Source: Conoideocrella luteorostrata (taxonomy: Eukaryota; Ascomycota; Sordariomycetes; Hypocreales; Clavicipitaceae). From it: a stretch of 43,616 bases of DNA. The notes beneath the pieces are model-generated. The model did no database searches. It was not told the origin of the DNA and saw only the letters and a program-made list of their open reading frames with translations. The position numbers and the translations under genes are program-made. Shown here in pieces: positions 6,254 through 43,616 of this stretch; the first letter of the stretch is position 1, and each line of letters opens with the position of its first letter. Location: the NCBI GenBank assembly GCA_032433595.1, contig JASWJB010000345.1, positions 1 to 43,616 of the forward strand, in the 5' to 3' direction.

Positions 6254-7517
6254 ATGGCCGACTCAAATTTCGTCAAGGCGGACCCGGAGGAGGACAAGAT
6301 CATGCCGCCTGCCATGCCAATGGAGGAGGATGACATGTTTGAGGATGCCGGCGATCTCGAATTCTACGACAAGACCACTCCCGGCAATAGTTTCGAAACT
6401 CTTTACCTCGCGCGCGTACCTAAATACATGTGGAACTCCTGGCTACAGATTGCGGAGAGGCTTGGCGATGACGACGAGATCCAGATCGGAACGCTGCGGA
6501 CCTGGAACGAGCCACAGCCTGACGCGACAGTTGAGGGGGGTACCAGAGACGTGACCAAACTTCGCATGCTCTTGAACTCAAACTGTCCGGAGCACCAGTC
6601 TCTTCCAAGAGAGTATGACCTCGATATTTTGGACAGAGAAGTCAAAAATCACTTCATATTCAGCGAGGAGGACTTGCCAGGGTACAAGGCCAAGAACAAA
6701 GAGCGCTCAGAGGCTGCCGCTGCAGGCATTCCCCAATCGCTGTTACGACAAAGGCAGAATCAAGGCGCAGAGAGGACGCCGCGGCCATTTGACCGAAGGG
6801 CTCGGAACCAGCCCTATTACCGCAAAGCTATCCCAAGTTAGCCCAACCCTTGACTGACCAAAAGCGGAAGATGGATAAGCTAATATTTTCAACCTACTGC
6901 AGAGCGGACAAAAGTCTTCGGCAAGGTCCACTATGACGTGCGTGTCGAGCCTCGAAATATACAAGAAGAAGAACGCCTGCTTGCCAAACAAATGTTTGAA
7001 GCCGAACACACCAAGACTAAGCTGCAAATCATAAGCAGGAACAGTGCGTCATCAATCATCAACCCCGGTGCTGCTGGCTCAGCCACCTGGGGTGGAAACT
7101 TCATTGTAAGTTTGAAACCATATTTTTCGGGGAGTTTCTTATTCGCCTTTGGCCATGCTAACAAGAAAATAGAAAAACGCGGCTCCAACTGTCAAGGCCA
7201 AGAAAGGCGAAGTTTTCAAGGCTGCGCGTATTCCCAAGAACCAGCTGCTGGATCTTATCTTCGACTGTTTCCGTCAATATCAGTTTTGGTCCATGAAGGC
7301 GTTGCGGCAGAAACTCGAGCAGCCCGATTCCTATCTTCGCCAGGTGCTCGAAGAGGTTGCCGTGTTGCACAAGAGTGGCCGCTTCGCCAACCACTACGGC
7401 TTGAATGACGCATACAAGGATAAGGCTGGCAATGACGCAAAGGAGGAAGCCGCGGAGGCCGTCGATGACGGTGATGATGACGAAAATGAGGAAATGGAGG
7501 ATGTCCTCCCGTCATAG
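6254..7517 (+). CDS. TFIIF beta subunit (Tfg2/RAP30 type)
   Basis: Three exons: 6254-6836, 6903-7105 and 7173-7517, giving 376 aa. The introns (66 and 67 bp) join in frame. The N-terminus is acidic. Residues about 45-160 form the dimerisation domain (LARVPKYMWNSWLQIAERL, then KNHFIFSEEDLPGYKAKNK). The middle has VHYDVRVEPR. Residues about 275-340 form the winged-helix domain (KAARIPKNQLLDLIFDCF, then YLRQVLEEVAVLHKSG). The tail is acidic (DDGDDDENEEMEDVLPS). Known role: the small subunit of general factor TFIIF, which stabilises RNA polymerase II in the preinitiation complex. It appears complete and intact. Confidence 0.93.
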
Positions 7518-8014
7518 GAAAGAGTCTTCACGCCAAACTTTTACCTACCAAAATGTAACAAAACATATGTTTATGGACGAGTTTGCGTAATTGTGGGCAT
7601 TCTGGCGTTTGAGCAAATAAACCCGCCCGTGCGTGGTGCGTACTAAGGTATACACGCCCTGAATAGATTGGGCTAAGAGAGGTTTAGACTTAATACATTT
7701 GTTGATCATGAGATTGAGATGGCTGGTGATGATGCTTGTGAAACCTAAAATTGCATGCACCAAGTTTTCACATCTAGTCCTGTTGGCGCGGGAACCCTAT
7801 TTTCAACCTAGAACTTTGTTCCTCATAAGCTTCATTTTAAAGCTGGGGAACGCATGATTTAGCATTGGCCCAGGGTATTATCGTATATGAATATCATACG
7901 TAGACCGATCTCCGGATGTCGAGGTGAAGCCAAATTCCCCGCCCCACCACCACCTCGCGGGAACAAACTCTCACACTAAAACCTTCGCGGTTGTCTCCCG
8001 GAGTTCTTCAAAAA
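7518..8014. other. Intergenic TFIIF beta - HAD phosphatase
   Basis: 3' flank of the TFIIF gene and promoter of the next gene on the same strand. No feature is recognised except a C-rich stretch at about 7935-7960 ahead of the next start. Confidence 0.5.
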
Positions 8015-25751: not shown

Positions 25752-26855
25752 CATAACACGGCACTGCGAAGTGTGGAAATGGTTTCACATGTTGCCGCGT
25801 AAGATCGACTCGGTCCGTGCCGCTGCTTGGCAGTACTTTGATCAGCCTCACATACACAATCGTGGGACAGCAAGCCATGCAATCGTAGCGGGATAACAAA
25901 ACCATAATGATAGACCTGCCATTACAAATTTTTCACGCAGCTTACTGGTTTTTAACAAAATTCTGATCAAGTGTCCAGCTGTGTAAATATGCCATCTACT
26001 GATATTCGTCTGGTTATGCTACCTACACCAACTCTCAAAGAGCTATGCTGTTCCACAAAACCTATCAGGCGAACGCTGGGGCTGCTTTTCAGGTTTCGTC
26101 TTCATGGTTTCTGGTTCGTGCATACAATTGAGTAACAAGCGGATTCTTTGACGCACATGTCAGGAAAACTTTTGCTCATTCCCGTCACTGCCCTTCTAGC
26201 TCTAGACTTATTGCTAAGCTCCATACTCCATAGCACACACTGAATCTCAGCCGCCAGTTTCCGCATCTGTACTAATAAATATTATAGTAAATCATATTCC
26301 CCCCCCCCCTTTTTTTTTTATATAAATTTAATACTTCTTCTAAATTAATCAAGTTGAATTGTTATTTACGTGATTATCTCTTTGGTATTATTCTTGCTCA
26401 GCCTTGGTGAAGTACCCTGCCACACGGGGGACAATTTACGTGACCCTTCACGGCTAACCCAGCCACGCTGCACCCACGGCTGTGTGAGATCCGTCGGAGT
26501 AGCTCGCATTTAGAAAATAGTCGCCGGTCACTGGCCTTTAATGCCGCCTGGTCCCCTCGCCGGCCAGCAGAAAATAGCAGGCAGGACCCGCTGTAATTTG
26601 CATCAGTCTGTTCGTGCTCGTTATGCCGTATTTGTAACCCATCATTGATATACATCCAGCTGGCCCGGCCCGTTCCTAGAGTGGATGTATCCGCATTCCC
26701 AGAACATTTTTGTTCTTGAGTTGCCCAAAACGATTTCAGCTGTCTCCGCTTAATTGAGTCGCTGCACATGAGGCTGGCTTTTTCTCCAATAGTAGAGTCT
26801 CTCATTTCTTACTTTCTCCACCAATCCTGCGCCCCATTTCCCTAGATCAGCTTGA
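25752..26855. other. Intergenic with C-run/T-run
   Basis: 1.1 kb without a supported gene. At 26300-26320 a run of about ten C is followed by about ten T, in an AT-rich segment that continues to about 26390. An open frame at 26398-26805 (-) shows no known domain. Confidence 0.45.
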
Positions 26856-27397
26856 AATGGCTCCGCAGCCAGCTTGCCACTTCAGGTACGCCCGGCTTCT
26901 TCGTCTCAACCCTTATTATACCCGACCCGCCACAATTCCCTGCCTGTATTATAATTTCGCTTTTGTACTTTGTTTCCGCTCTCATATCTTGGCATTGTCC
27001 TCTGCGACGAGCAGCTACACGCAGACTCCATAGAGCGACTAGTGTTCGACATGCCAAAAAAACGGCGGCCGATCTAGAGCAGGGTGTGAAGATTATCCAC
27101 GAGGGTGGGAAACCTGAAGTCGACATCGTCCTCGTCCCCGGGCTCGGAGCTCACCCCGTAAATTGCTGGGCTTCTGCCTCTGGTTTCAATTGGGTCACTT
27201 GCCAAGATGGTCTGCAACGAGACTTTCCCATTGCTAGGGTCTTGCTATATCATTCTGCATCTTCATGGTCGGGACCTCTGAAGGTCCATCAGGATATGCA
27301 AAACCTCAGTGTAACTCTTTTACATGCACTCAAGGGAAGACGTCAAGAGTGTTCGCGGAGACCTATAGTCTTCATTGGGCACAGCATGGGCGGCCTT
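26856..27397 (+). pseudogene. Truncated SesB-like alpha/beta-hydrolase domain (NLR N-terminus)
   Basis: A long frame on the plus strand reads VDIVLVPGLGAHPVNCW, then RVLLYHSASSWSGP, then RPIVFIGHSMGGL. This is the alpha/beta-hydrolase domain (SERAC1/SesB type) that heads many fungal NLR proteins. Homology stops right after the nucleophile elbow GHSMGGL (about 27397), and the frame then runs into AT-rich sequence until a stop at 27457. The start is unclear: ATG 26856 could be joined through an intron (donor after CACTTCAG at about 26885, acceptor CTACACGCAG at about 27021) to the body, in frame. The remaining catalytic Asp/His and any NB-ARC/NACHT and repeat domains are absent. Likely cut by insertion or rearrangement. 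Confidence 0.72.
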
Positions 27398-27590
27398 TAT
27401 ACCAAAATATATATTAATAAAAGTAATAAAATAATATTAAGAGAAAAAATATATTAATTCTTAATAATATAAATAATTACTAAAAATAAAAGCTTATAAA
27501 ATAACTAATTATATAATATATAACTTATTATTATACTTAAAATATTTAGTAAATAAAGTAAAAAAATAATATAAATAATAATTAGGCTTA
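27398..27590. other. Very AT-rich insert or RIP-like block
   Basis: In 27421-27540 I count 10 G/C in 120 bases (about 8 percent), against roughly even composition on both sides. The block starts exactly where the hydrolase homology ends. It has no open frame of note. It could be the edge of a transposable element degraded by RIP, or AT-rich filler at a rearrangement point. Confidence 0.6.
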
Positions 27591-28099: not shown

Positions 28100-29221
28100 T
28101 TATGGCGCGCATGTGGCGCCTTTTAATCTGGGTAAAAGCTGAATATCACGGATATCGTTGTGTTGCATAACCCAGGACAGAAACCTCTCTGTTCCGATTC
28201 CCCACCCTGTTGAGGTTAAAGGCTTGATGGCTCTCATATCAAGATACCAGGCATAATCAAGTGGGCTGACCTCATGCTGATCAAGAGCCTGAAGGGCCTC
28301 TTCCTTGGTCCGGTGTCGTTCTCCGCAGCCGACGACCTCACCAAGGCCGAGTAGCAAATCACCGCACTTGGCTTTATTAAGCCCGTCTCCAACATACGAC
28401 TGATAAAATGGGACGCTGAGGTGATCCATCTCCATTAGCCAACATGCGCCGCCGAACTTCTCGATCAGCATGCGTTCGCCTTTGCGGGTCAGACATCGAC
28501 CAAACTGAGGTTGACCATCCACGGCATATTGCCACATGTCGCTTTTCATCTCAGGAAGATTCAAAGCGTCGTCCAGATTGATGGTAGGGAACTGGTTACC
28601 GTTGTTCCTAAAAAGCGCTAGGAGTGATTCCAAATGACTCGTTGTGCCTGCATACGCCTTGATCTCGGAAGCATGGTCCCGCAAAAGGCCTTCAACCAGG
28701 AAGACCACATACGAGTTCGCAACCCCAATTCCATTATTCAAGTCACCGACCAACTCGCATTCGACGTGGCAAAACTGGTTGAGATGTGTGGCGTCATGAT
28801 CCTCTCCACGAGCAGATGTTCCAACATAGTACGCTCCTAGGAGCCCATCCTCAAGCCTCAGCGCATACTCGAGCACAAATTGCTGAGAATCCGCAATATA
28901 CGTCTTGTCGCCGTGGAGCTCGATGCTCACGGGCTGCGAATCAGATCCCAAACCCATCGGAGAGCTTATGCTATTTGTGGTTATTGGCACAACCAAGTAC
29001 TTGTAACCCATGCGTTGGCCGAAAAAATCGACGGACAGGTGGAAGAGAGTACTCTGAAGTTTGAACATGGCTGTGTACCATGAGTCCTGCATGGATTTGG
29101 CAGCGAATGTGCTGGGGTCTTTCCACAGCTTGGGTACGACTTGTTTGCTGCTTAGATTGGTCTTTGGCTCATATTCCTTACTTCTGTTGTTCAACAGGAC
29201 AGAACTCTCGACGATGGCCAT
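28100..29221 (-). CDS. Stand-alone AsnRS-like class II synthetase core
   Basis: Single exon of 373 aa, far shorter than fungal AsnRS. It begins directly in a class II catalytic core with no N-terminal OB-fold anticodon-binding domain. Motif 2 region: GTSARGEDHDATHLNQF followed by HVECEL (Arg and Glu of the R-x-E loop kept). Then LGLGEVVGCGERHRTKEEAL and YAWYLDMR as in AsnRS. Motif 3: GWGIGTERFLSWV and DIRDIQLLPR (Arg kept). The ATP-binding site therefore looks complete. Known precedent: archaeal AsnRS-related asparagine synthetase, which makes Asn from an aspartyl-adenylate without tRNA. I infer an adenylate-forming amide or peptide ligase, possibly on Asp or Asn. It is divergent from the P-loop kinase gene. 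Confidence 0.85.
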   Translation of the reverse strand: MAIVESSVLLNNRSKEYEPKTNLSSKQVVPKLWKDPSTFAAKSMQDSWYTAMFKLQSTLFHLSVDFFGQRMGYKYLVVPITTNSISSPMGLGSDSQPVSIELHGDKTYIADSQQFVLEYALRLEDGLLGAYYVGTSARGEDHDATHLNQFCHVECELVGDLNNGIGVANSYVVFLVEGLLRDHASEIKAYAGTTSHLESLLALFRNNGNQFPTINLDDALNLPEMKSDMWQYAVDGQPQFGRCLTRKGERMLIEKFGGACWLMEMDHLSVPFYQSYVGDGLNKAKCGDLLLGLGEVVGCGERHRTKEEALQALDQHEVSPLDYAWYLDMRAIKPLTSTGWGIGTERFLSWVMQHNDIRDIQLLPRLKGATCAP

Positions 29222-30158
29222 CTTTATTGAGATGAGTGGGTTTGGTGTTAATTTTTTAAGCTGAAACTGATCGTGATGAATAAGATGATTGGTGATAGTA
29301 CAAATGGTCGACTCGGACTTGGTGAGTTAGTTCCCAGAGGATTTGCCCATGGCCCTTTTATAGTGAATGAACCTACAGTCAGTGAAGACACTCTGGTTAG
29401 CGTCTACCCCAAGTGAGTCAGTTGTCTAATCATCATTTGATTCGTTTCGAGTCGTACGAGAAGCACCTGATTTGCCGACAACCTAATTCCCTCTGACCGG
29501 ATCACTAGACATCTCCTACTCATATTGGAGGCCTTGCGTTTCGTATTGTCTGTCATATCTAACCATTCGCCGGCGTTTTTATGGAGTGTGCCCGTCGTAT
29601 CTTTTTAGCATGACCCTGATTCATTCCCTCAAATATTTGGCGCTCATAGGACAGAGCTAGATTAAAAATAACATACCCCATGCAGCACTTGCGTTATAGT
29701 GGACGGATCGGATTCATAGAGGTCAGGGAACAGACATTTGGTTGGGCTAGACTTGGTCCGCTTTGACGAAGTTCCCACTTGGAGGATTTGTCTAGTTACT
29801 TGCATAAGTGGTGGCCTTATTGGGCTCTTAGCGGAATCCCTCGGGCCTGATCCATGCTATAATTGCCTGAAATAAACAAGACATTGCCTGTAGTTATACG
29901 ATGTCCACTCTTATACGACCAGTCTACTTACTTGCATAAGCGGTGGCCTTATTGGGCTCTTAGCAGAATCATTCGGGTCTAATCTTTTCTCCTTCCAATT
30001 CCGGGTGCATAGCAATACAGCTATAACACAGTCATTGAGTTTCGTCGCCAAAGAATATGCCTTCTCGAGCATCATACGCCTTTCCTTTTTGTTTTTTATC
30101 CTTCTGTGGATAGGTGACTTCTAAGTGTCTTTCACAACCAAGGCTGGTTTTCTCTAAA
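29222..30158. promoter_or_regulatory. Divergent promoter region, AsnRS-like / P-loop kinase
   Basis: 937 bp between two divergent starts. Most of its second half is taken up by the 62-bp direct repeat listed separately. A candidate TATA-like TTTTATAG lies at about 29356. No gene inside. Confidence 0.5.
29791..29984. repeat. 62-bp imperfect direct repeat
   Basis: Copy 1 is 29791-29852 and copy 2 is 29923-29984, 132 bp apart start to start. Both contain CTTGCATAAG, a variable base, then GGTGGCCTTATTGGGCTCTT, followed by a GGAATC/AGAATC-type end. I count about eight differences, mostly C/T and G/A. It lies 175-370 bp before the kinase start, so it may be a duplicated control element. Confidence 0.8.
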
Positions 30159-30800
30159 ATGGCCACATCACCATCCTCTGCCTCACTCGGGGTACACCAT
30201 CGCTATCCTATAGTACATATCAACGCCTACCCAGGGACAGGGAAATTGACTATAGCGAAATCCCTACTGGCCATGTTGAGCCCTCCGGCGATGAAGCTCG
30301 TCCACAATCATCTTCTGATCAATCCAGCAGACGTTGTACTTGGCCGAGAGCAAGATGGCTACCAGGACTTACGCCAACGTATACGCTCCGCGATATTTTG
30401 GTCGCTTGTGCATGAACCGGCCACGTACTCTTCATCATACGTTTTTACCGACTTTCAAACAAATAACCACCTCGGGGAAAAAGTAATGAAGGAGTACGCG
30501 AAGTGTGCGAAGGATCGAGATACTGTCTACATTCCCATTGTGCTAACCTGCGATCTGGATACCAACTTGACGAGGTGCGAAGCTCCAGACCGTGCACATA
30601 GCGGGAAACTTGTCGACAAACAGCTGCTCAGGAAATTTAGAAACCACACCGAGCTTTATTCATTTCATCATGATTATGCGACCTTGGAGTTGGACGTGTC
30701 AACGCTCTCGGCTGCTGACGCGGCAAAGCAAATATTAAGGCATGTGCTGAATCTTGCTCCCGAGCTCAGTGTCCACGTTATTAGTCCTGTACCTTTATAG
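30159..30800 (+). CDS. P-loop kinase-like protein (AAA_33/zeta-like fold)
   Basis: Single exon; 213 aa from ATG 30159 (the frame stays open upstream but has no earlier ATG). The Walker A region is NAYPGTGKLT (residues 22-31). Leu follows the Lys where Ser/Thr is usual, with Thr next. LVHNHLLINPADVV and then FTDFQTN follow, the latter as a Walker B-type strand, with Arg-rich segments (TRCEAPDRAHSGK) suggestive of a lid. This resembles a family of small fungal and bacterial P-loop proteins grouped with chloramphenicol-phosphotransferase- or zeta-like kinases; the substrate is unknown. It ends 108 bp from the 3' end of the Ntn-hydrolase gene (convergent). As part of the cluster it might phosphorylate an intermediate or the product; that is inference. 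Confidence 0.72.
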   Translation: MATSPSSASLGVHHRYPIVHINAYPGTGKLTIAKSLLAMLSPPAMKLVHNHLLINPADVVLGREQDGYQDLRQRIRSAIFWSLVHEPATYSSSYVFTDFQTNNHLGEKVMKEYAKCAKDRDTVYIPIVLTCDLDTNLTRCEAPDRAHSGKLVDKQLLRKFRNHTELYSFHHDYATLELDVSTLSAADAAKQILRHVLNLAPELSVHVISPVPL

Positions 30801-30908
30801 AGATTTTCATGTAGAACACGAAATACTTGTCTCAGAGTGCACTAGTTCCGTATTTTCCGAAATGCTTTTTAGTTTCTTGTCTTGTTATTTCTCGTTCTCT
30901 ATTCTCCA

Positions 30909-33513
30909 TCACTCCCACAAAGTTTCTAAAAAAACTCCAATATTGAGCTCAAGTCCCGCCACTGCAGGTCCATCTGAATTGGACGGATCGATTACATCCG
31001 ATGTTGCCAATAAATAGTTACCGTCTGACTGTTCGACATTGAGCCCTCTGGGCCATACTTTGACAGTCCCCAGGAGCTTGTCTTGTGGGGTGAAGCACTG
31101 CGCGCAGGATGCGTCGCTACTTTGCCAAGCCTCTTCCTGTTTCCAAGCCATTCGGCTTGGATCAAAACTTGATAGCCTATGAAAGAAACACGTAAGTGAC
31201 GGCATTGTATCCCGAACTTTGTAATACAATATCATCTTTTTGAGACGTGCTATGAACTGTTGTGTTAGCCGTTTCCCATCTTCCATATTACCGGCAAGAA
31301 GCAGGGAAACGGTCAGATTATCAAGCAGTCCTATTTTTGGACCGTTCGATCGCTCGTTTGAGAACGAGATGGTATATAAACCTTCATGTATAGGACAAGG
31401 GAGATGCAGCACATGTGCATCAGCTTGCCAAAGCCTGACACCTGGAGAAAGCGCCGTGAAAAGTTTGTCACAAACCTGATAACCAAGATTAATACCAAAG
31501 AATCCATGAATCTCATGGAAGCACAACTGATGGAGTTGTGATTTGCGGCTTTGTGCGAGGAAGGTATGACTGACGGCAACATTCTGGGATGATCCGTCAC
31601 AGTCGTCATTCCCTCTAGTACAGCGATCATACAATCGCTCTCGAGTGACAGCGGCGAGCGATCCGAGTTCTTCAAAGTCTGGCGCAATCACTCCACACTC
31701 AATGCTTGGGGCGTCTTGCGAGTTGCCGCAGTATGGTGCAGGTGATGGGAAGTGTTGGAGAATAGTTTCCAGAGGTCTTATCTCAATGACGATTGCTGAA
31801 GAAACACATGGGGACTGAAAAGCGATTGAATCTGTGTGAGTATCGAACCTTTTAGTTAATATTTTCAATGCGCTCCATATTGCTGCTATCACATTGTGGA
31901 AGCGACGAGGATCTAAATTGAAGAAGTCCCTTGTCGAGCAATTGTGCTTCTCATGTATTTCAGCCCTGTCCAGCTTGCTGCCTTCGCTTTCACGAACGGT
32001 CCAGATTTTGAGGCAGAAATTGTCATCCAGCTCTTCTTCAAAGCATTTTAACGACAAGGCTGTCGTAGAGGCTTTCATCTCGCACAAATGAGCTCGATTT
32101 TCGGTGCGTCCACTGCTGGTTGCACCATCAGGACATTGCTCCCATGACCGGTGAGACTCAACTTCAGCGTCGGACAATGCAGGATTATTGGTAGTGATCA
32201 TGCGAAAGGGAGATAGAAAAACCTTTGTAGGGCCTTCAGTAATGAATTTGAAGCCTGTGCAACCCAAAGTGGCTTGGATTTCAGATGCAAGACGACGTAT
32301 TGTGAGGAAGAACCGCTCAAAGAGGACAAAGTTAAAAGTATTGCCTTTTCTGTTAGGCTTGACTTCTGCAATGATCTGGTATTTTCGTGTGGGATATTTG
32401 CAAAACCCTGCCTGCATGAGGGTGTCTGTGTAGAACATATGATGCTTCAATGCTAGAATTGACGGGGCGAGGACGTTCGCCGTCCTTGTTCCACTCTGAG
32501 ACGTCGCGGCTGCGGTCGTGAAAAGCCTGCTATTCGATTGAATTGATATCTCTCCTTCGGAAGATATGGCAATGCAACCACAAGAGGATTTGGGGAAGGC
32601 GTCGCCAGTCTGCAATATGGCAGTTCGAACAGCATCATCCAAGCTTGAACCGGCACTGTAGTATGCAGCAATCTTCCCGGCTGTCGTGGTTTGCAGAATA
32701 GCCTCTCCAGATCCACTGCTGTATATATAAGTTAGCTTGTTAAGTTCACCGGGACTTTTCTTGGACATGGTCTTTTGGACCAGGTTGCCTACCAAACAAT
32801 TGCCACGTTCCTGTCGGCCCAGATGCCCGCGCCAACAATTGCCGTATCGCCAAGGCGCCCGCTCAGCTTGAACGTCAGCCCTCCAGTCGTGTTCGCTGCT
32901 GCGAGGTCGCCGTTTATATCTATTGCCACGGCTCCCGCTGTGCCATGATCTTCAATGATAGCCCTGACTCTGGATATATTCGCTTCCCAGTATGTTCTTC
33001 GTCTATCCGTGGTGAAGTAGTCGTTATCGACAATGACCAAGCCTTCTTCCGCAGCCATATCATCTGCTGTCGTGCCAAAGATTAAACATGGCACAGGACG
33101 ACGCATCAGGGTTGATGCAAGGCGAATTGGATTCTTGGTGCGTTGCAAGCCAGTAACAGCCCGGTACTTGGAGGTGCTGCCGTCGACAATACCCGCCTCG
33201 AGCTTCAAGACGCCAGCCAAACATTAGCTCACGCTACACATGCGCAGACCCGTTTCCAGTAAAACGAACTTACTTCATGAATGCCATCGATGTTTAGCGC
33301 CGAGCCGCGTCCTGCATTGATATCAGGATAGTCCTCCAGAGATGCAACGACTTCAGTAACGACAGTAATCGCTGAGGCGCCGCCTGCCAACGCAGTTTCA
33401 GCAGTTTTCAGGATTTCTTGCAAGAAAATACACAGATTTTCGTGAGAATTGTCATCCCCGATCCACGAATCTGCCGCACCGCCGTGCAAGGCGATTGCCC
33501 ATGTATTTCTCAT
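30909..33513 (-). CDS. Isoaspartyl peptidase/asparaginase-type Ntn hydrolase with long C-terminal extension
   Basis: Three exons on the minus strand: 33274-33513, 32793-33202 and 30909-32718, giving 819 aa; introns of 71 and 74 bp keep frame. Start: ATG 33513, immediately before the conserved WAIALHGGA. Residues about 1-290 are a complete Ntn asparaginase-2 domain: HGGA, NAGRGSALN, LEAGIVDG, autocleavage site with nucleophile Thr168 in DHGTAGAVAID, NTTGG, and GRLGDTAIVGAG. Residues about 300-819 (HHMFYTDTLMQAGFCKYP, WQADAHVLHLPCPIHEG) are one open exon that I cannot assign. Usual family members are about 300-350 aa, so the extension more than doubles it. Known role: hydrolysis of beta-aspartyl peptides or Asn after self-cleavage. 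Divergent from the ATP-grasp gene. Confidence 0.82.
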
Positions 33514-33881
33514 GACGCTTGGTATCGCGCTGTTGACCCACCAATGGTGCAAAGAGAATCCAAAACCACTTGAATAGATTTGGGGTAAATAGGAGGAGTT
33601 ACGAATCTTTGTGATGCGTATCGTGAAGTAAAGCCATGTTTTACTGCCCAAAGGTCATTCATTGGATTATCTGCCTTGATCCGCGGTTTGCAGTGGACCC
33701 GAAGCCTAGTCAAGGCCAACCTCTCGATGAGGCCACCCACAAAACGGGGTGGCACGCTCCAATTTGATCCGTTGCGTCATGTCCAATACGATGAACGTCG
33801 ATACGGGCTCTCTCGGCGATGAATGGCCTGACTCAGATCCATGTCACTTTCGTGGCCTTGTAGTTTATATTACTGGCCCTA
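33514..33881. promoter_or_regulatory. Bidirectional promoter, Ntn hydrolase / ATP-grasp ligase
   Basis: A 368-bp gap between two divergent starts, so the two genes are probably co-expressed. GTGGCCTT at 33852-33859 is also found in both copies of the 62-bp repeat upstream of the kinase gene. A TATA-like TTTATATT lies at 33864-33871, only about 11-18 bp before the ATG at 33882; a later ATG at 33969 would fit it better. Confidence 0.5.
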
Positions 33882-35849
33882 ATGGCTCGCAACTATGACG
33901 GCAACACCGAGCTAACATCTCGTGGTTACCATAGTACTCCGACCATCTCCTGCTCTCTGCTCGAAACCATGACCAACTCGTCACCTGCGGCAAATTACCT
34001 TTTCCATGTTGTCATAAATGACATCGAACAGCATTTCGTCAAAGTTGAGCTGCATTTGCAGCATCTCCCTGACGTGCAAGCGCTGCTGAGCCTGCTTCAG
34101 AATGATATATCACACCCCCACGCCGCTACGGACATGCAAGCGTTGGAACAGCACCTTTCCACGTTAAGCGGAAGCCGATCGGCTGCTGTGGTGCTAATTG
34201 GATCAAAAAGTGAGGGATGGTTAACCAGGGCAGATATAACGACTTATCGCCTCCAGAATATCCCAGAATTTCCATCAATTTACGACTTGAAGCCCCCATC
34301 CACGAATGTGACGTCCATGCTGAAGCCGTCACAAATCGGCCAAGTTTACAAAGACATCGTGAAGGATTTGTTCTCTTCAGCTATCAGCGCTATCGTTGTT
34401 GAGGGATCTGATCCGAAAGATCTTCAGTCTCTCTTAAATCAGCTTTCTGAAAAACTATCCCGCAATCTTAATATTCCGTTGACGGTCCCTCAGCATACTT
34501 TCAACAAGGTCATTGGTGTTGTCGGTGGAGGTTATAGCCCTGCCTTTCGCATCGACATGTTTAAGGCTGCGGCGGCAGCCAGACTGCATCTGGTGATTAT
34601 GGATGATCCGACACACTGGTTGAATTCATGGAAACATCCTGCCGTAAGTTTTGTGCCCATTGATTTGGCTCTGGACGATGGACTTTGCGATCGATTGATT
34701 GCCGCTTGCCAATCTTATGGGCAAGAAATACATGGAGTAACTACCTTTTCCGATTATTATCGCACTGTGACAGCCAGCCTCGCTGTAGGTCTTGGTTTGC
34801 AGACCGATTCTCCCGATGCGCTGGATATTTGTGTTCGTAAAGACAAGTTTCGCCGGCTCTTCCCGATCGAGAATTACAAATCATTCTGCTGCTCTTCCGT
34901 GGAAGACCTTGAGAGACATACCCACGAATTAGCAGGTTCCTTTCCAGTGATCATCAAACCTCGCAGTGGTGGAAACTCTGCTGGGGTGCACAAAATTGAC
35001 TCTCTGGGAGAGCTCATGCTGTTGGTCAAGGCCCAAAGTCGTCTTAGTTCCGAAATCCTGGTGGAAAAATATATCGACGGTCCCGAGTTCGATATCAATA
35101 TCGTTCTGATAGATGGAAGTATCGTTTTTCATGACATCAACGATGCCTCACCTTGTTCTGCAGAGCGTAATGGGCGCATAAACCAGCCAGCCTCCTTCAT
35201 AGAGGACAAGATGATCTGGCCGTCCATGCTACCATTATCCGAGCAACTTCTCGTGAAGCGGAAAGCACAAGAAACCGCCACGAAACTTGGCTTCACCGAT
35301 GGAATATTCCATATGGAGGGTCGTGTCATAGGGTCTTCTATGGCGTGGAGCCTCTCGACATCAAGACAGACGCCAAAATTTGAATCAATCGACAATCAAC
35401 CAAAGGAGACGCCACAAGCTATGTTGATAGAAATCAACCCTCGAAGTCCGGGGTACTCTACTCAGGCGGCCTACTCGGCTATGTATGGCGTAGACTATGT
35501 CTTGATCCAGCTGCTTCTTTGCGCGGACGACAAAGAACGTGCCAGGATACTCTCTATTCCCTTTGCGAACCCTAATGATACGTGTGTTATCACCCAGTGT
35601 ATCCATACGCCGCGCGCTGGAATCTTCTACGGAGAGAATATGTTTGATGTCTTGCAACAACAATTCCCTCTAATGATGACGTGTGTGATTTCAACCTATA
35701 CCTTCTTTCGTGATGGTGATGTTGTCAACGACCCGAAGGATAGACCTTCGTGGGTGGCGTTATTCGTTGTCAAGACTGACAACGGCCGTGAGGAAGCAGT
35801 GAAAATATGCGAAGAAATTATAGCAAACATAAAATACGAGATATGTTAG
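33882..35849 (+). CDS. ATP-grasp ligase, carnosine-synthase-like
   Basis: Single exon of 655 aa from ATG 33882; an in-frame ATG at 33969 (MTNSSPAANYLF) would give 626 aa and suits the TATA-like element better. Residues about 1-210 are unassigned. At about 215 VIGVVGGGYSPAF starts the pre-ATP-grasp Rossmann-like domain. The ATP-grasp core follows: VIIKPRSGGNSAGVHKI (nucleotide-binding Lys, Gly-rich loop, about 354-370), LVEKYIDGPEFDINIV (about 393-408), and the metal-binding LIEINPRSPGY (Glu and Asn, about 513-523). The order and the GPEFDINIV and EINPRSPGY motifs match carnosine synthase and bacterial amino-acid ligases. Known chemistry: ATP to ADP with an acyl-phosphate intermediate, forming an amide or dipeptide. 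Substrates are unknown. Confidence 0.87.
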   Translation: MARNYDGNTELTSRGYHSTPTISCSLLETMTNSSPAANYLFHVVINDIEQHFVKVELHLQHLPDVQALLSLLQNDISHPHAATDMQALEQHLSTLSGSRSAAVVLIGSKSEGWLTRADITTYRLQNIPEFPSIYDLKPPSTNVTSMLKPSQIGQVYKDIVKDLFSSAISAIVVEGSDPKDLQSLLNQLSEKLSRNLNIPLTVPQHTFNKVIGVVGGGYSPAFRIDMFKAAAAARLHLVIMDDPTHWLNSWKHPAVSFVPIDLALDDGLCDRLIAACQSYGQEIHGVTTFSDYYRTVTASLAVGLGLQTDSPDALDICVRKDKFRRLFPIENYKSFCCSSVEDLERHTHELAGSFPVIIKPRSGGNSAGVHKIDSLGELMLLVKAQSRLSSEILVEKYIDGPEFDINIVLIDGSIVFHDINDASPCSAERNGRINQPASFIEDKMIWPSMLPLSEQLLVKRKAQETATKLGFTDGIFHMEGRVIGSSMAWSLSTSRQTPKFESIDNQPKETPQAMLIEINPRSPGYSTQAAYSAMYGVDYVLIQLLLCADDKERARILSIPFANPNDTCVITQCIHTPRAGIFYGENMFDVLQQQFPLMMTCVISTYTFFRDGDVVNDPKDRPSWVALFVVKTDNGREEAVKICEEIIANIKYEIC

Positions 35850-36434
35850 AAGTTTAGTCTTTAATCGCATTCATTCTTTATTGCCAGTGTAAATACACCA
35901 TAGTGATCCATTCTGTACAATCAACGTAGCTGAATGAGCAAGACATGACGTGGTTGCATGAGTTTCCTCTAGCCACTTCATCCTGTTACATAGAACATTG
36001 CAGCAAACCGACCATCAAGCAGCAGAGCAGCTAGTAAAGGACAAGGTAGTGATAGGAGTTGTACTCATAACTACTTTAGTTAGTGGAGATCAAATAATTG
36101 AGTCGTTCCCCCTTTTGTTATTGAGAGCAAACACTGTGGCTGATCTCGGAAAACACGTACACGAACGCACGAGAAGGTCCATGAAAAGCAGCTTGAAGGA
36201 AAAGCGAAGATGATTGATTCCTTGGCATCTACCTTAGCGACATGAATCCCTTTTTATTCCTTCGTACGAAGTAGCTAATTTCCACTTTGACCCTGGTCCA
36301 TTCTCCCAAGCGAAATTCCGTCTTTGTGGATGTGCCGGGTCCGTCTATACAGCAGCTAACTAAGCAACATTGAAGTATGCATATGGCGTTGAAGGTTCTC
36401 ATATGCCAGATAAGTATCGTTTCGTTGAAATTTC
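35850..36434. other. Intergenic between convergent ATP-grasp and C2H2 genes
   Basis: 585 bp. A short open frame at about 35998-36213 has no ATG start and no domain. Nothing else seen. Confidence 0.5.
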
Positions 36435-37164
36435 TCACTTTCGCTTTGTCAGCCGGCACGGACGGGGAAACAGGTTATTTCTCATCGTGCAATGTATTCG
36501 ATCGAAATGTGTTTCCTGATTAATTTAAAAATAATGAGATGTGTTTGCTTCAATCTCTTTATTTGCGTTACTTCAAAAGGAAGGGTTAGCCGTGGCCTAG
36601 GTTACTTACCATGTTGTCTTTCCTGCTAAATACTCTCTTACAAAGAGGAAATCGACATTCAATGGTTGGTTGGTGGGATTTGAGATGTCGCTTGTAGTCT
36701 TTCTGGGTTGCAAAGCCGATTTCAGATTGCTGGCACTGGGGTTTGGAACAGAAGTAGACTTTGACATGGCCACGGAAATGCTTTCGTAAATCGCAGGCCC
36801 GTTCAAACACACGCTTCGAATGACAACCTGGATATGCGCACCGCCAATTGCAAGCGGCGTCCTGATAGCCGATTTCAAACACGTCGTTGGGAAGCGACTC
36901 ATCGGGGGGCGGGCAGAAGGTTTGTTCATACAGTGGATCATCTTCCGGAGACTTGTACAACGAGAAGGGCGCAGCCTTGATGTCCGGACCCAACTCCCAG
37001 ATTGGATATTCCTGATGGCTCGTGATTTGTGATGTCTTTGAAAGCGGATTATGCTGTGGAATCGTATCAGCTTCGAGCAATAGCATGGCAAGACTAAGCT
37101 CTTGACAGGCCGTGAAAGCTGTTTCAGCTTCAGGTATAGACGCAATATCACCGAATTCGTTCAT
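36435..37164 (-). CDS. C2H2 zinc-finger transcription factor
   Basis: Two exons on the minus strand: 36610-37164 and 36435-36515, giving 211 aa. The 94-bp intron lies inside the third finger; only after splicing does it read CRFPLCKRVFSRKDNMETH followed by FDRIH, a full C2H2 unit. The other fingers are WRCAYPGCHSKRVFERACDL with RKHFRGH, and YFCSKPQCQQSEIGF with KRHLKSH. The last exon ends in a basic tail (RPCRLTKRK). An ATG at 37275 is in frame upstream and would add 37 hydrophobic residues that do not fit a nuclear protein, so I use 37164 (MNEFGDIASIPEAE). Its place between the ATP-grasp ligase and the exporter suggests a cluster-specific regulator. Confidence 0.8.
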
Positions 37165-38559
37165 AGTGCCTTTCACAGTATTAACTAAACAAAGAGTATG
37201 CGAGCAAGTAGAAGCTTTGTATACAATACGGCTAATTGCGATTGTAAGGTTAAAGTCCAAGAAATTTAGTCTCATAGCAGAGAAATACCTTATCTGCGAA
37301 CTGTGTAGTGTATATAACGTATGTTAGATTTGATTGGAACGATCCAGCAACTTGACTCATGTATCCTGGTTCCGCAATTCTTTGGTCGTGGAGAGACCCC
37401 TATGTCTTGCCATACCTTTGAGTCATTCTGTTTTTCCGCAGACAATGTGATCCTAATCCTCATTTTTAACCTTCCTTCATTCGGGAGTACTTCGTTATAC
37501 TTGAACGGATTGATCCTGACTGTGACCGAGCTAACGCGTTGACTGATACGTTGGCTACGGGTAGCTGCTAGAGCTCTAAAAGAGCTACAAGAATGGATTT
37601 TCGTTTCGTGAGTGTGTTTTTTGAGCTGGATTCGTTATGTTGATCAGTTCAGACACGGGGAGAGTGGGTCCAAAACTCGGAGTTCGTATGCTGCCATAAT
37701 GCAACATCAGACCCAGAGCTTGATTTAGAGAAGCCCGAGTATTATTACGAAGCCAGGGTCTGAGCACCGGGCGATGACTCCGATACCGCAGGGCTGAGCA
37801 CATCCATATTAAATGCGGTGAACACATAGTATTCATTACGTGTCGCCCGACTTCTCTTAGCGTTCATGATTATTATGGCTGTTTTAAGACATGGGTCCAT
37901 GGAGATACAGCTTCAACCGGGCGAACTTGAAACGAAGGATCGATAAAGATACTTGATGCGTGCACGGTACTTACAAAGAAATTTGGGGGGCAAAGCGTCT
38001 TTAGTTAGTCCCGCTCGACGGCTAATGATGGAAGTCGGAGAAAGCAGGAGATAATCCTGTGTCACAAAATTTAGCAAAAGATGAAGCTCCACACTACTAG
38101 TGTGGATTATGCAATTTATATTGCCCGTGAGACAGGAGATAATCCTGCATTCACTAAGGATCCCGCCCGACTGGCAAAGAAGATTACAAACCCCATACAG
38201 TGGCTCTCGGGACGTGCCTATTATTTCCTCTGAATATTTCTGTTCACCGCCGCTTAGCAAAGATTATAGTTGATTATTAATACCATTCTGGATCCCCCTC
38301 TAGCTGATATTATTTAGCCTGTTACACCTTAGGATTAGTCGTGAAACTCCCATTATTGCTTCAATCGGCGGCGAATGCATCAAGACTGGGAGGGCCTAGT
38401 AGTATACTCCAACACGTCCCCGTCGCCTCACTACTCCTTATCTCACTCTGCACAGCCGCTCATCTAAGTCTTGTTACGTGTCTCTCCCTGTTGTTTCGGT
38501 ACCTACACATAGTTGCCGGCGCTGTTCCTTGCTGTGAAGCCACCAGCATGAGATAGAAT
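37165..38559. promoter_or_regulatory. Divergent promoter region, C2H2 factor / MFS exporter
   Basis: 1.4 kb between divergent starts. It holds the fold-back sequence at 38044-38148. Other open frames (37585-37836 and 37913-38260 on the minus strand) look accidental. Confidence 0.5.
38044..38148. repeat. Fold-back element with three nested palindromes
   Basis: CAGGAGATAATCCTG occurs exactly twice (38045-38059 and 38133-38147). Each copy is a palindrome apart from its GATAA centre. Midway lies CCACACTACTAGTGTGG (38089-38105), with 8-bp arms around one base. The centres are 45 and 43 bp apart, so the whole 105 bp is one imperfect inverted repeat: GCAGGA...TCCTGT plus TCAC on the left pairs with GTGA plus ACAGGA...TCCTGC on the right. 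It lies about 410 bp before the exporter's ATG. Confidence 0.85.
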
Positions 38560-40860
38560 ATGCGCTACCCACGCCATCACGATAACGAGGACTCCCATTC
38601 TCAGCTTCTAGAAGAGGATTATGAGCTTCAACGCTATGAGTCAGGCAATTCATCAGGTGCTAATAACCATACACCAAGCGCCAACGGCTCCAGCAATGAA
38701 GAACTCGGCTTGAATCAAGCAGATTTTACAAACAAGGTCTCAAAATCAACCTTTTTCATCATAGTAGCAGGTGCGCATATCATGAGCAATGGATGGAAGT
38801 ACCTCTTTCAGGGACAAATATAGCTAACGTCGCCAACTCAGCTATTCTCTTATCTAATTTCGTGAGTATTTTCCACGTACCGACAAGCATGCGAGAACCT
38901 TCGCTTACCACTAACTAATGTTAGTCTGCCGCCGTAGACACTGGACTGTCAGCTTCCACGCATACAACAGTAGCAGCCTCCTTCAACCACACGAACTTGC
39001 AAGCCTGGCCAGTTAACGCCTTTGTTCTCGCATCGATGATTGTGCAGCCACTATATGGGAGGTTTTCAGACGTAATGGGCCGCAAAATACCATATGTTAC
39101 CGCGTCTTGTCTTTTCTCATTGGGTATAGCAGCGAGCTCCGTCGCCCCTACCTGGGAAGTGTTGATAGCCGCTCGGGCATTATGTGGCATTGGCTCTGCA
39201 GGCGTCACGACTATGGGTATGCATTTAACGTTCTTAAAAATCTTCCCGTGGCTGACCAGCGATATCAACTAGGATCTGTTGTTCTCACCGACACAGTTGG
39301 CTTATCTAAACGTGGATACTACCAATCACTCAATTATGCTGTGTACGGCGGAGGAACTGCGTGAGTCCAATCCCTTCTTAAGTTTCTTCAGCCTGAAATT
39401 ATTGCATTAACATCATTAAAACTAATTCCTGACAGACTTGGTTCTGCATGTGGAGGAAGCATTGTAGAACTACTTGGTTGGGGTTGGATTTATAAGGTAA
39501 GTCAGCACTGCATATCTTGTCAATATATGACGCATAAGAAAGCAGAAAAAATATAGCAGAACAGGTTCATAATTTAACAGTGGAATAAGTTGCAACTCCC
39601 GATAACTCTGCTGGCATTGAGCCTCTTATCTTGGGTCATCCCGGCCAAATTAGAACCCGTTGTGCAGTCTCAAAAGCATCGTCTACCTCTAAAGTCTATA
39701 CTTCGTAACTTCGATTGGCAGGGCTCTATATACTTGGTACGTCTTTTGAACTTGTAGATGGTATGGAGCCCAACTAGAGGATTCGTTTTCTGATCTGTCT
39801 CTAGATGGTTACGCTCTTGTGTCTGTTTATTCTCCTGACTATGGGCGGCAACCTTTATCCATGGGGCCATCCCTTTGTGCTCCTGGCAGCCATAGCTACT
39901 GTAATTGCTGCTGGCTTGTTTATTTTCACTGAGAAGAAGAAAGAGTATGCGGTCTTGCCGTTGTACTTACTTATGAATTTCCCCTCTCGAAACGTAATGT
40001 TAACAGGGTTTTTAACTTCCTTTATCAACTACAGCGTCCGTTCCCCCCCTTTTGAATATATAAAGATGACGTTATTGATGGATCTTCCAGGTTCTATATA
40101 ATACAACCCTTTTTTTTCAAACAGTTCTCCTTGATTCGGTTCATACCGCCGGGTTTCGACTTCTCATTCCGTCAGTCTCTTATACTCTAGCAAGCTGCCT
40201 CACTGGAGTCATCATCGCCAGACGTAAGAGCCCGCTGCTTACTCTGAGGCTGGGTCAACTGTTTCTCTGTCTAGGCACGATAGGCCTGGTCGTAATGGCC
40301 TCAGCATTTCGTACAGTGTCAATAGCTGGCTGGACGTACAATATCATGTTATCTATACCGATTATTGGGGTAGGCATGCTAGCCTCAAGTACCGTTCTTA
40401 CACTATTGCATGTCACCCCAAGTGCCGACCAGGCTGTTGCAACCGGCGGGCTTATAATGGTTAGATCTTTGGGCGTCTTTACTGCGACAGCCATTAGTGG
40501 TGCCATTCTGCAGAACATCTTCTTACTGGTTCTTCGGCCGCAGCAATTGGACAAAGAATCGGCTCTAGTAAGTCCAGCAAGGAACATTCGGCCGCGTATA
40601 CTTTCACCGTAATCATGTGCTTACCCAGTCTATTTAAGTCTGTTGAAGCTGTTCGCGAGGATGCTTCAAAGCTTCTAGAAATGGCTGAACCGCTAAAGTC
40701 ACAAGGTTTGTGTTTACTCTTCTTAATAGAAATGATAGGAGTTAACTTTACAATAGTTATTGCATCATATGAAAAAGCCTTCACAGCAGTATATGGGACC
40801 TGTGCAGTGGCAGCTATTATATTGATCGCATCCCTATCATGTATACAGCGTGTATTATAG
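38560..40860 (+). CDS. MFS exporter, DHA2/14-TM type
   Basis: Ten exons: 38560-38770, 38842-38861, 38925-39216, 39273-39360, 39436-39496, 39581-39736, 39805-40035, 40091-40567, 40639-40705 and 40757-40860, giving 568 aa; all joins keep frame. Exon 2 has only 20 nt. Two splice sites are less usual: donor GTCCGT at 40036 and acceptor TTTAAG at 40638. The N-terminus of about 65 residues is hydrophilic. Motif A is GRFSDVMGRK between TM2 and TM3; ARALCGIGSAGV and YAVYGGGTALGSACGG follow. About 14 membrane spans are expected, as in the DHA2 drug:H+ antiporter and vacuolar basic amino acid transporter branch. Likely role: export or vacuolar storage of the cluster product. The join after IYK (KWNKLQLP) is less certain. 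Confidence 0.82.
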
Positions 40861-41280
40861 ACAGATCTGATCTGAATAATTAGTATGCCAGTAAGTCCAT
40901 GCGCGTGCCAGTTTGGACGAGGCGTGTTACGATAAGATTCGTTGGCTGTGTGGGTGGATTAGTCATACACGCAAGTGGGACCTACAGGCACACTACGGCC
41001 CCTTTTCTATAGCTAGATAAAGTATCATACATACAACAACAATAGAAACATTTATCTTGCAATTCCAGCACGTAACAAGGCGAGTGGATGCTCATTAAAG
41101 TTGTGGATAAAGTTGTGGATTGACAGTGCATCTGGACAACGTGGCAGCAGGAAACCCAGACCACAAACAAACCTGACCAGGGGCGAGCATGAAGGGCCTC
41201 GCAATCGGTATGCGACGCCCGGTAGGGCAGGGAGGCTCCTCTCGGCCCACAGGGGGTGGGTGTTTGGGTTTGTAGGCTAT
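40861..41280. other. Intergenic, nothing recognised
   Basis: 3' flank of the exporter. Two short copies of AAAGTTGTGGAT lie side by side at about 41097-41120. No gene supported. Confidence 0.45.
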
Positions 41281-41430
41281 TGACAGGTACGCTGCGGATC
41301 GGGAAGTGGCGGATGCTGAGTGCATGGATGAGAAGTTGCAATGTCGCCGGGATACTGACAGGTACGCTGCGGATCGGGAAGTGGCGGATTCTGAGTGCAT
41401 GGATGAGAAGTTGCAATGTCGCTGGGATAG
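41281..41430. repeat. 75-bp tandem duplication (two copies)
   Basis: 41281-41355 and 41356-41430 are tandem copies starting TGACAGGTACGCTGCGGATC, with three differences. The unit is a multiple of three and both strands stay open through it, but no protein family is recognisable. Confidence 0.9.
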
Positions 41431-42076: not shown

Positions 42077-42308
42077 ACGTGCTTACACGAGTGCTGCATC
42101 TATCGCATGACATGGAAAAATCTTCTTCAGCCGTGATCTGTCGGATTGGTTGAATGGTTCCACTTCCTGTATTGCTGTTCCAGCTCTGGTGGTAGTTTGG
42201 GAGACAGCAGTGATTGATGAGGCTCATGGTGGGATAGACTCCATCAGGCGAACCCGATCCACGGCGAAGTGAGTTAGTTGAACAATGTGTTACGTGCTGG
42301 AATTGCAA
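42077..42308 (-). pseudogene. SET-domain fragment
   Basis: The minus-strand reading has PDGVYPTMSLINHCCLPN, then HQSWNSNTG, then TIQPIRQITAEEDFSMSCD. This matches the core of fungal SET-domain proteins (consensus NHSCxPN...W N...T..IR.I..GEE...Y.D). The catalytic-core Ser of NHSC is Cys here, the final Tyr-containing block is altered, and no upstream SET part or downstream cysteine cluster was found. It is best read as a decayed piece of a SET-domain methyltransferase gene. Confidence 0.6.
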
Positions 42309-43616
42309 GATAAGTGATGTTATTGTTGTTGTATGTACTCCGTATGATGCTTAATCTAATTAGAACTCGATAACCAATATCATCTAACAGCAAAATAGAA
42401 TCATGGAAAAATATACATTAAGTGTAACTAAGTTCACGCTCGAATGCCTAGCGCAAGGGTCTGGGCGGCTGGGTTTCCCCGAGCTACCTCTTCCTAGCTA
42501 CTAAACCATTTGATCTTAAGACTCACTGCAAGCTCTTTATGCTGGCGGTTTTGTTGCTGGCCTCCTCGCCGAAGGTAAGTTGTCCGCTGCCTGACCTGAC
42601 CGTCATGACGCATTGGAATTGGGCTTCCAATTAATCTCACCTACGGCTTCATTATCACTACGTCCACTGCGCTGTTGGTTTTCTCTTTATTTCTTGACAA
42701 AATACGAATTCCTTTGCTTTCGAGTGACGGCTTACCAATGAGGCAGTCTCGTACAATTTAGACATCGCATCCCCAAGATGTATCATGCAAGGTAAACTGT
42801 TCACGAAGAAATGCAGAGACCACTGTACTATAGAGCTCTGCAAGCGCCAAATTTCGAAGAGTTAGCACTCTGTTAGATGTTTTGTTGACCAAAACACACA
42901 CAACCCACAACAGCTTGCTATGAACGTCGAGTGTAGGGTAGCGGACCTGAAGTGGTTTGAACCGAAGGTTGTGTAACTCACTTAGCGCGATAGATAAAGG
43001 AGCAAGGGAATTATAAGATCTTTAAAGTAATAATGATCAAATGGTTCAATTCAATTCCCTTTGTTTAACTCGTAGTCAGACTAGCATTCCACGGTGCAAT
43101 AACTCGAGGCACTTAAGCTACTTCTGAGAGGAGTCAATCCATGAGAGCAAAAGTTCAATGCTCGAGCTAATACTTTGAGAGAAAAATAAATTTATTATAC
43201 ACATTAAAGTCATGAGATAAAATGAACTTTGGTCCTGTTGCCCTTGCATCTTGGTGTGCGCGAGATCCGCCACACAATGTTTACACAGCAATGACAGAAG
43301 GCCATGGAGTGAGATGTACGTAAACTAAAACAGAATTAACTTACTTCATTCCAAGACACACGCGGCTTCCACAACCAAATACTACGAGCAAGACGGGATT
43401 CCGGTATAGTTCCACAATAGCATCTCAATCGTGCGAACCAAGGATCTGCATGTGTTGAGATTAGAGTGGCACCTTCGGAAATAACCAATATGTCAGAGAT
43501 TACTGCTTGTGAGGGCATTCAGAAGCCACGTGATGTCGTGAGTCTAGTGACGCACCTCAGCCTATGGGAGGAGTATAGCATGCAGCTAGCAAACTCTTCG
43601 CTGCGGGGTAACAGCG
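42309..43616. other. Right-end region, no supported gene
   Basis: TACTCCGTA occurs at 42336-42344. A minus-strand open segment at 43334-43518 (MPSQAVISDILVISEGATL at its start) ends in a GAA-GTAAGT donor, so it could be a first exon, but no partner exon or family was recognised. AT-rich stretches lie at about 43170-43205. Otherwise nothing seen. Confidence 0.35.

Follow-up and report, generated by a model that had tools for sequence, protein, structure and literature searches.

An unusual gene cluster of Conoideocrella luteorostrata around an asparaginyl-tRNA synthetase-like module that recurs across kingdoms

What might a fungal gene cluster make if its centre is neither a polyketide synthase (PKS) nor a nonribosomal peptide synthetase (NRPS), and is instead a gene resembling asparaginyl-tRNA synthetase (AsnRS)? 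This question is raised by a stretch of 43,616 nucleotides, here called the window, from contig C345 (JASWJB010000345.1) of Conoideocrella luteorostrata. The fungus is a pathogen of scale insects. Its draft genome has been published, with 48 clusters reported by antiSMASH, and the locus has no mention in the available part of the genome paper (PMC12352038). A sequence-only reading had claimed six genes at 28.1-40.9 kb, with divergent starts at 29.2/30.2 and 33.5/33.9 kb. Open frames, Pfam matches and sequence comparison located all six genes at those positions, and both divergent starts were correct. The gene content also supports the claim of a cluster without PKS or NRPS, built around an AsnRS-like core with a hydrolase partner and a transporter. 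The cluster is unusual and surrounds a module that recurs across kingdoms. At about even odds (0.5), comparison of sequences points to a small asparagine- or aspartate-derived amide, which would be made without a ribosome or NRPS and then exported.

The AsnRS-like core and its hydrolase partner

A profile of the 373-aa AsnRS-like protein and 15 relatives matched the Pyrococcus horikoshii AsnRS (1x54) only from residue 126, in its catalytic part. Since the match begins there, the N-terminal anticodon-binding domain is missing. The AsnRS-like core had been recognised before; the absent domain is a correction, and on this ground canonical tRNA charging was rejected. Residues R138, R302 and R346 are invariant across the 16 aligned sequences. 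The QFxLE signature of the window core resembles those of this genome's AsnRS proteins, QLHLE (L003) and QLYLE (L004), whereas the AspRS-type proteins of the same genome differ at this site, with QLAKQ (L001) and QFYKQ (L008). NCBIfam supported these labels: L003 matched asnS at 374 bits (cut-off 343), asnS was the best model for L004 (326 bits), and the best name for L001 was aspartate-tRNA ligase. Together with a Pfam match to PF00152 (76 bits), the signature places the window core with the AsnRS-type members of the class II D/K/N synthetases. Taking the QFxLE signature to reflect AsnRS-type substrate specificity, as we presume from AspRS biochemistry, its presence suggests asparagine as the substrate.

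A protein search with the window core gave 939 matches, and the 120 listed include fungi, fish, the brachiopod Lingula, bacteria and metagenome proteins. The window core is 77% identical to a Trichoderma gamsii protein and groups next to it in a tree of 116 rows. In this tree, the fungal, fish and Lingula proteins and some metagenome rows form one clade (SH-aLRT 100) among bacterial ones; the tree is a quick one without bootstrap and has several long branches, for which the program warns of long-branch meeting. A third AsnRS-like gene piece of C. luteorostrata was seen on contig C200 (L030, C200:38000-47900, about 4395-4814).

The hydrolase gene beside the core has three exons by splice-site reading (Table 1) and encodes 819 aa. 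The 680-aa frame containing exon 3 matched Asparaginase_2 (PF01112) at 34.5 bits (cut-off 27). The joined protein contains GTAGAVA, whose Thr is conserved in at least 90% of the aligned rows; by domain and aligned Thr the protein belongs to the T2 isoaspartyl peptidase/asparaginase family of Ntn hydrolases. This Thr is presumably the catalytic one. Piece by piece, the gene is 96-99.5% identical to the database protein QQS21_010987, with differences that include exon edges.

The hydrolase had been called a fusion. Its Ntn part stands; the fused part is better described as weakly similar to the HIT/GalT fold. HIT-like regions lie in exon 3 at about 32438-32205 and 32051-31773 in a low-confidence model. 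The structure model of the C-terminal part (pLDDT 52) gave weak best matches to HIT/GalT-type proteins and a DUF4931 protein, and was used as a hint of a HIT fold only, being too poor otherwise. According to the available text on microcin C, MccF cleaves the carboxamide bond and MccH the phosphoramide bond of the processed compound (PMC7157772, PMC9239234). The MccH-type motif ExxxxxHxHxKxx, with H, Y or F allowed at the first H, is absent from the joined window protein. It is likewise absent in 11/11 split-type Ntn proteins (P0126-P0135, P0137), the window's own database record included. Loss of the HIT motif in the window branch while a transporter is present would agree with secretion of a product left intact.

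Recurring partners in fungi, animals and prokaryotes

For fungi other than C. luteorostrata, the evidence on neighbours consists of gene models and equally long contigs. In the lichen fungus Gyalolechia, a single protein (P0138) combines Ntn, HIT and AsnRS-like parts, and in Fusarium (P0038) one gene model spans Ntn and AsnRS-like parts. In Penicillium digitatum, Colletotrichum fioriniae PJ7 and C. phormii, the contigs that encode the AsnRS-like and the Ntn protein are equally long, so that the two genes likely share one contig in each. The Ntn gene models of C. salicis and C. phormii continue into a major facilitator superfamily (MFS) transporter homologous to that of the window. The Ntn gene model of another lichen fungus, Pyrenodesmia (P0136), ends in the P-loop family of the window (36% over 78 aa, E 2e-11). 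C. luteorostrata itself has a second set on contig C426, in which Ntn, HIT, HIT and AsnRS parts are collinear on one strand with apparent frameshifts, beside a divergent P-loop gene (L025, C426:13000-22900, 3465-7795). Read by eye, this fused copy keeps the MccH-type HIT motif in its Y form. Because of the fusions, the shared gene models and the likely shared contigs, the AsnRS-like and Ntn genes are, on gene-model evidence, a conserved pair in fungi, and the P-loop and MFS genes recur with it. Homologues scattered without a conserved neighbourhood would have counted against the sequence-only reading; that is not the pattern found for AsnRS-like with Ntn, Ntn with P-loop or Ntn with MFS genes.

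The same AsnRS-like protein is encoded by fish (P0053, P0054, P0057, P0066, P0074, P0080, P0083) and by Lingula (P0070). In the carp gene models P0080 and P0083 it is joined to an Ntn domain, and the fish proteins P0053, P0054 and P0057 carry the MccH-type motif in its Y form. An independent HIT signature was found in eight AsnRS-like proteins among the 120 listed, and E-x5-[HY]-x-H-x-K is present in 8/8. This count left out P0086, in which the match lies inside the AsnRS domain. P0136 has no motif, and its gene model skips that part.

In prokaryotes, one scan took the best 80 of 537 loci, sorted as 64 A-type cores, 6 B-type cores and 10 canonical AsnRS/AspRS loci, with neighbour matches kept only at 40 bits or above. 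Six of 16 initial control loci had proved to be AsnRS-like cores and were reclassed as B-type before counting, and L103 was counted as A-type; before reclassing, the control counts out of 16 were 3 for S66, 3 for HIT, 1 for Ntn and 6 for methyltransferase. At L031 the sole S66 match, which overlaps the AsnRS-like frame, was left out of the counts. Some loci recur between samples: at least four of the 17 Streptomyces stretches described below are earlier loci, L112 is the L100 locus, and L113 and L114 equal A-type rows. Because of these repeats and the many related species, locus counts are not independent events.

An MccF-like S66 peptidase gene was found within 5 kb of 45/64 A-type and 3/6 B-type cores, compared to 0/10 canonical loci (48/70 cores vs 0/10; Fisher p = 4e-5, a value inflated by related loci). 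Full flanks are available for 45 A-type loci; of these, 30 have S66 within 5 kb and 5 have it 5-10 kb away. A profile of four neighbouring S66 proteins matched the MccF-like BA_5613 structure at 352 bits and MccF at 272, ahead of muramoyltetrapeptide carboxypeptidase (LD-carboxypeptidase) at 121; one of the four searched alone also found MccF first. The phylum to which the Woesearchaeota genome belongs added nine B-type loci, eight with S66 and seven with a methyltransferase. Over all 15 B-type loci, the counts within 5 kb are S66 11, methyltransferase 11, HIT 4 and Ntn 1. The four B-type HIT proteins (L094, L095, L100, L209) carry the exact MccH motif E-x5-H-x-H-x-K, and at L094 and L209 the HIT gene ends 25-40 bases ahead of the S66 gene on the same strand. 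Locus L100 has the order AsnRS-like, HIT, Ntn, with 17 bases between the first two genes and an overlap of the last two; this is the set that is fused in Gyalolechia. The L100 genome has a second AsnRS-type frame of 436 aa elsewhere. L100 is far from the eukaryotes in the 116-row tree, and the HIT and Ntn partnership therefore arose twice or is old.

At the alphaproteobacterial locus L059, the AsnRS-like gene is flanked by an AAT-family Ntn gene (PF03417, 27 bits, cut-off 23) immediately before it and a P-loop gene immediately after it, and a gene of the S66 cluster comes further on. Of 379 Patescibacteria genomes 82 had a match, and the best 30 loci were taken from these. Four core-only genes are neighboured by HIT and Ntn, by a methyltransferase (two loci) or by S66, and the 26 canonical-looking loci have none of the partner set in their short flanks; three of the four core-only loci repeat loci already counted.

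ATP-grasp genes lie within 5 kb of 11/64 A-type cores, at 5-10 kb in 3/45 and near 0/10 canonical loci (p = 0.34, not significant). The 17 Streptomyces stretches (12 to 20 kb) contain ATP-grasp in 9, S66 in 10 and a methyltransferase in 10. Two of them, L176 and L179, bring together AsnRS-like, methyltransferase, MccF-like S66, ATP-grasp_4 and MFS genes; their ATP-grasp_4 proteins have below-cut-off matches to the L-amino-acid-ligase domain PF18603, and L179 also holds a pyridoxal phosphate (PLP) decarboxylase-type frame and a second ATP-grasp. By gene content the window looks like a fungal counterpart of this kit. The AsnRS-like genes are rare, being found in 19/392 Streptomyces (E <= 1e-50) and 11/371 genomes of the phylum of the Woesearchaeota locus (E <= 1e-60); this patchy spread is as expected of accessory pathways.

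Extra synthetase genes were seen beside some AsnRS-like genes: a LeuRS type at L179 (5966-8533), a PheRS-alpha type at L176 (6762-7829) and, at L066, L050, L054 and L061, a class II G/H/P/S/T type with an anticodon domain, read as ProRS (Pfam on L066 only). They could be self-resistance copies against a synthetase inhibitor.

What the cluster may make

In microcin C the aspartamide derives from Asn, and the export pump is of the MFS type. In the available text, the toxic part is termed an isoaspartyl-nucleotide, MccH and MccF destroy aspartamide-adenylate, and producers export the product by a pump (PMC7157772, PMC9239234). The likeness to our loci lies in the hydrolase types, since MccF (S66) and MccH (HIT) types are also found near AsnRS-like genes; the difference is that the window has Ntn in place of S66 and no HIT motif. 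Because MccF and MccH destroy aspartamide-nucleotides, the likely product would be an asparagine-derived amide, possibly a microcin-C-like warhead.

A pathway of this kind could run as follows. The AsnRS-like enzyme would form Asn-AMP (or Asp-AMP), and transfer of the acyl group to a nitrogen would then yield either an (iso)aspartyl amide or an aspartamide-nucleotide. One further amino acid may be added by the ATP-grasp enzyme, and the P-loop protein may phosphorylate an intermediate. The MFS protein would pump the product out, and the Ntn hydrolase would cut the isoaspartyl bond of product left inside the cell, as MccF does in microcin C producers. As far as the analogy goes, a T2 Ntn isoaspartyl peptidase could replace MccF, since it would act on the right type of bond. 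The self-protective role proposed for the hydrolase by the sequence-only reading gains weight from the MccF- and MccH-type partners in prokaryotes. Its overall view, a cluster for an amide based on Asp or Asn, is partly supported, the recurring AsnRS-like, Ntn, P-loop and MFS partners speaking for it.

The adenylating enzyme of microcin C synthesis, MccB, belongs to the ThiF family. No ThiF-family gene was found near the AsnRS-like gene in the 21 genomes judged of 22 searched (other contig or >800 kb away, with some contigs short and the G003 contig unresolved), and contig C345 has no ThiF match. The absence of ThiF near AsnRS-like genes suggests, by analogy, that the AsnRS core may be the adenylating enzyme in place of MccB. 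No S66 was found among the seven window frames scanned with Pfam.

An aspartamide-nucleotide would be the boldest product that the data allow. In that tentative and rather doubtful extension, a repurposed AsnRS core would replace MccB and adenylate free asparagine, yielding an isoaspartyl- or aspartamide-nucleotide without a ribosome or precursor peptide. The chemistry would span bacteria, DPANN archaea, fungi and fish, with interchangeable hydrolases (MccF-like S66 or Ntn, with MccH-like HIT), and the Conoideocrella branch would have disarmed its HIT part and acquired an exporter, so that an activity once contained became secreted. If true, this would extend peptide-nucleotide chemistry to eukaryotes and would give genome mining a new handle, the AsnRS core with MccF/MccH or Ntn partners, from Patescibacteria to fungi, with a fused protein reaching fish. 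The partnership of AsnRS core and hydrolase points to natural-product chemistry that has possibly been overlooked, and one small fungal gene without introns would allow a direct test of the idea that synthetase cores turned into amide-makers.

Synthetase-like enzymes are already known to act in natural-product pathways, as with SlgZ and SbzA. SbzA kinship is with the class I synthetases. SlgZ is described, in the available text, as an asparaginyl-tRNA synthetase-like protein that works with the methyltransferase SlgM in making the tetramic acid of streptolydigin (PMC5357945). It is likened to our genes by this description, a methyltransferase lying within 5 kb of 36/64 A-type AsnRS-like genes. 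As a specific partner the methyltransferase is weak, the family being broad and also found at 5-10 kb in 9/45. No methylaspartate mutase was found within 300 kb of the AsnRS-like gene in 20 genomes (8/20 encode one elsewhere), and the link to streptolydigin is thus not supported. SbzA is a tRNA-synthetase-like aminoacyl transferase that, in the text available, moves isoleucine in the SB-203208 pathway (PMC6331615); it differs in using isoleucine, not asparagine, and in being bacterial. For the partnership of the AsnRS core with MccF, MccH or Ntn, searches of open-access PMC papers turned up no description.

Several observations weigh against the proposed amide pathway. The inference from MccF and MccH is indirect for the window, because its cluster has neither an S66 gene nor the HIT motif. 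The AsnRS-like protein P0073, which has a long N-terminal extension, has neither the HIT signature nor the motif. HIT was found within 5 kb of 0/64 A-type cores, the P-loop family near 1/64 (L059), and Ntn T2 near prokaryotic cores once, at L100 (1/15 B-type, 0/64 A-type). S66 is missing within 5 kb of 19/64 A-type loci, part of which lie beside NRPS genes; the AsnRS-like family therefore does not have a single role everywhere. In the 9.9 kb around the C426 copy no member of the MFS family was found, and no ATP-grasp was found on contig C426. For the window ATP-grasp, two close relatives were found (P0122, from Trichoderma barbatum, and P0123; 45-48% identity) in a search whose scoring was limited to the 7,994 candidates with the most shared words. 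Paralogues or pieces of it, 29-36% identical, lie on C254, C9, C222, C224, C88 and C618, away from detected AsnRS-like genes. Because of the few close relatives, the paralogues elsewhere and the absence from C426, the ATP-grasp gene may be a recent or unrelated neighbour.

The last of these points leads to the alternative that survives best, a possible if doubtful one, in which the AsnRS-like, Ntn, P-loop and MFS genes form a unit that has ATP-grasp and C2H2 genes next to it by chance. Such partners without ATP-grasp are seen in the C426 copy and in the gene models of Colletotrichum and the lichen fungi; this agrees with a smaller unit, as do the ATP-grasp paralogues elsewhere in the genome. 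On the other side, ATP-grasp and Ntn genes start divergently in the window, and ATP-grasp genes do occur near bacterial AsnRS-like genes, at the A-type frequency given above, which is not significant, and in more than half of the Streptomyces stretches (9/17). As regards other fungi, the ATP-grasp and C2H2 genes are tentative members of the cluster.

The AsnRS-like protein could instead serve primary metabolism, as an asparagine synthetase that makes Asn from Asp and NH3 like archaeal AS-AR, with the Ntn protein as an asparaginase and the pair tuning asparagine. In NCBIfam the nearest model to the window core is indeed 'asparagine synthetase A' (PRK06462, 203 bits), ahead of asnS (112 bits), and the archaeal asparagine synthetase A structure 3p8t is among the PDB matches; it too is an AsnRS-derived core, of 294 aa, with no room for an anticodon domain. 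However, the score is below the curated cut-off of 322, so that the window core falls outside PRK06462, and its signature is of the AsnRS type, not the AspRS type. The spread is patchy, and MccF/MccH-type hydrolases, ATP-grasp and MFS proteins are not needed to supply asparagine. We consider this explanation unlikely.

Quite unlikely, too, is a role in metabolite repair, in which the AsnRS-like protein or the cellular AsnRS leaks toxic aspartamide-adenylate and the HIT, S66 and Ntn proteins merely clean up, with no exported weapon. HINT-type proteins clean up aminoacyl-AMP, and the joining of Ntn with AsnRS-like parts in carp, and of Ntn, HIT and AsnRS-like parts in a lichen fungus, would suit such a task. 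Yet the window branch is without the HIT motif and has MFS and ATP-grasp genes, and the Streptomyces loci resemble biosynthetic clusters. Alarmone metabolism, in which the core makes diadenosine polyphosphates (ApnA) and the HIT domains hydrolyse them, is very improbable: aminoacyl-tRNA synthetase cores can make ApnA, FHIT cleaves it and the window HIT region has a weak FHIT-fold match, but the HIT motif of the relatives is of the MccH type, ending in Lys and not HxHxH, and the Ntn, S66, ATP-grasp and MFS partners are left unexplained.

The other genes of the window and its flanks

The features of the cluster are listed in Table 1. The kinase-like label given to the P-loop protein agrees with a P-loop-kinase-like fold in a middling structure model (pLDDT 67), although its only Pfam match, AAA_18, is below cut-off (19 bits vs 29.4). 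Its relatives lie beside the second copy on C426, at the end of the Pyrenodesmia Ntn gene model and beside the L059 AsnRS-like gene. GKL, not GKS/T, in Walker A is common to the window protein and that of L059 (6412-7029). The ATP-grasp ligase matched ATP-grasp_4, ATPgrasp_N and Dala_Dala_lig_C, all over the Pfam cut-off, the first two placing it with the ATP-grasp L-amino acid ligases, and an ExNPR motif was read by eye. The L-amino acid ligase BL00235 (3vot) has the same fold but low similarity (22 bits). The predicted C2H2 factor exists as a gene; its three zinc-finger matches in Pfam are all below cut-off. Pieces of the MFS protein are 31-45% identical to two Colletotrichum MFS sequences.

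Table 1. Coordinates of the cluster features in the window
Feature	Position	Strand	Remarks
AsnRS-like catalytic core	28103..29221	-	373 aa, one open frame; PF00152 76 bits
P-loop kinase-like protein	30159..30800	+	213 aa, Walker A with GKL
Ntn gene exon 3	30909..32718	-	Ntn domain end, two degenerate HIT-like regions, uncharacterised C-terminal region
Ntn hydrolase exons 1 (33513-33274) and 2 (33202-32793)	32793..33513	-	Isoaspartyl peptidase/asparaginase family, GTAGAVA
ATP-grasp ligase	33882 or 33960 to 35849	+	655 aa or 629 aa; related to L-amino-acid and D-Ala-D-Ala ligases
C2H2 zinc-finger-like protein, possible regulator	36589..37164	-	Gene end uncertain
MFS transporter, several exons	about 38560..40860	+	Colletotrichum MFS similarity

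A shared promoter motif was rejected, since the three divergent promoters have no 8-mer in common. Two 87-nt copies (29766-29852 and 29898-29984; 80% alike), possible regulator sites, lie between the AsnRS-like gene and the P-loop gene. On the left, a strongly AT-rich repetitive tract at 27404-27584 overlaps a short frame resembling alpha/beta hydrolases (26846-27457) at the end of that frame; the tract is possibly a repeat mutated by repeat-induced point mutation (RIP) and may mark the left edge. On the right, 50-nt inverted repeats at 41028-41077 and 42288-42337, 92% complementary and 1.2 kb apart, possibly belong to a small transposable element at the right cluster edge. A 75-bp unit is repeated twice in tandem at 41275-41424, the two copies being 95% alike.

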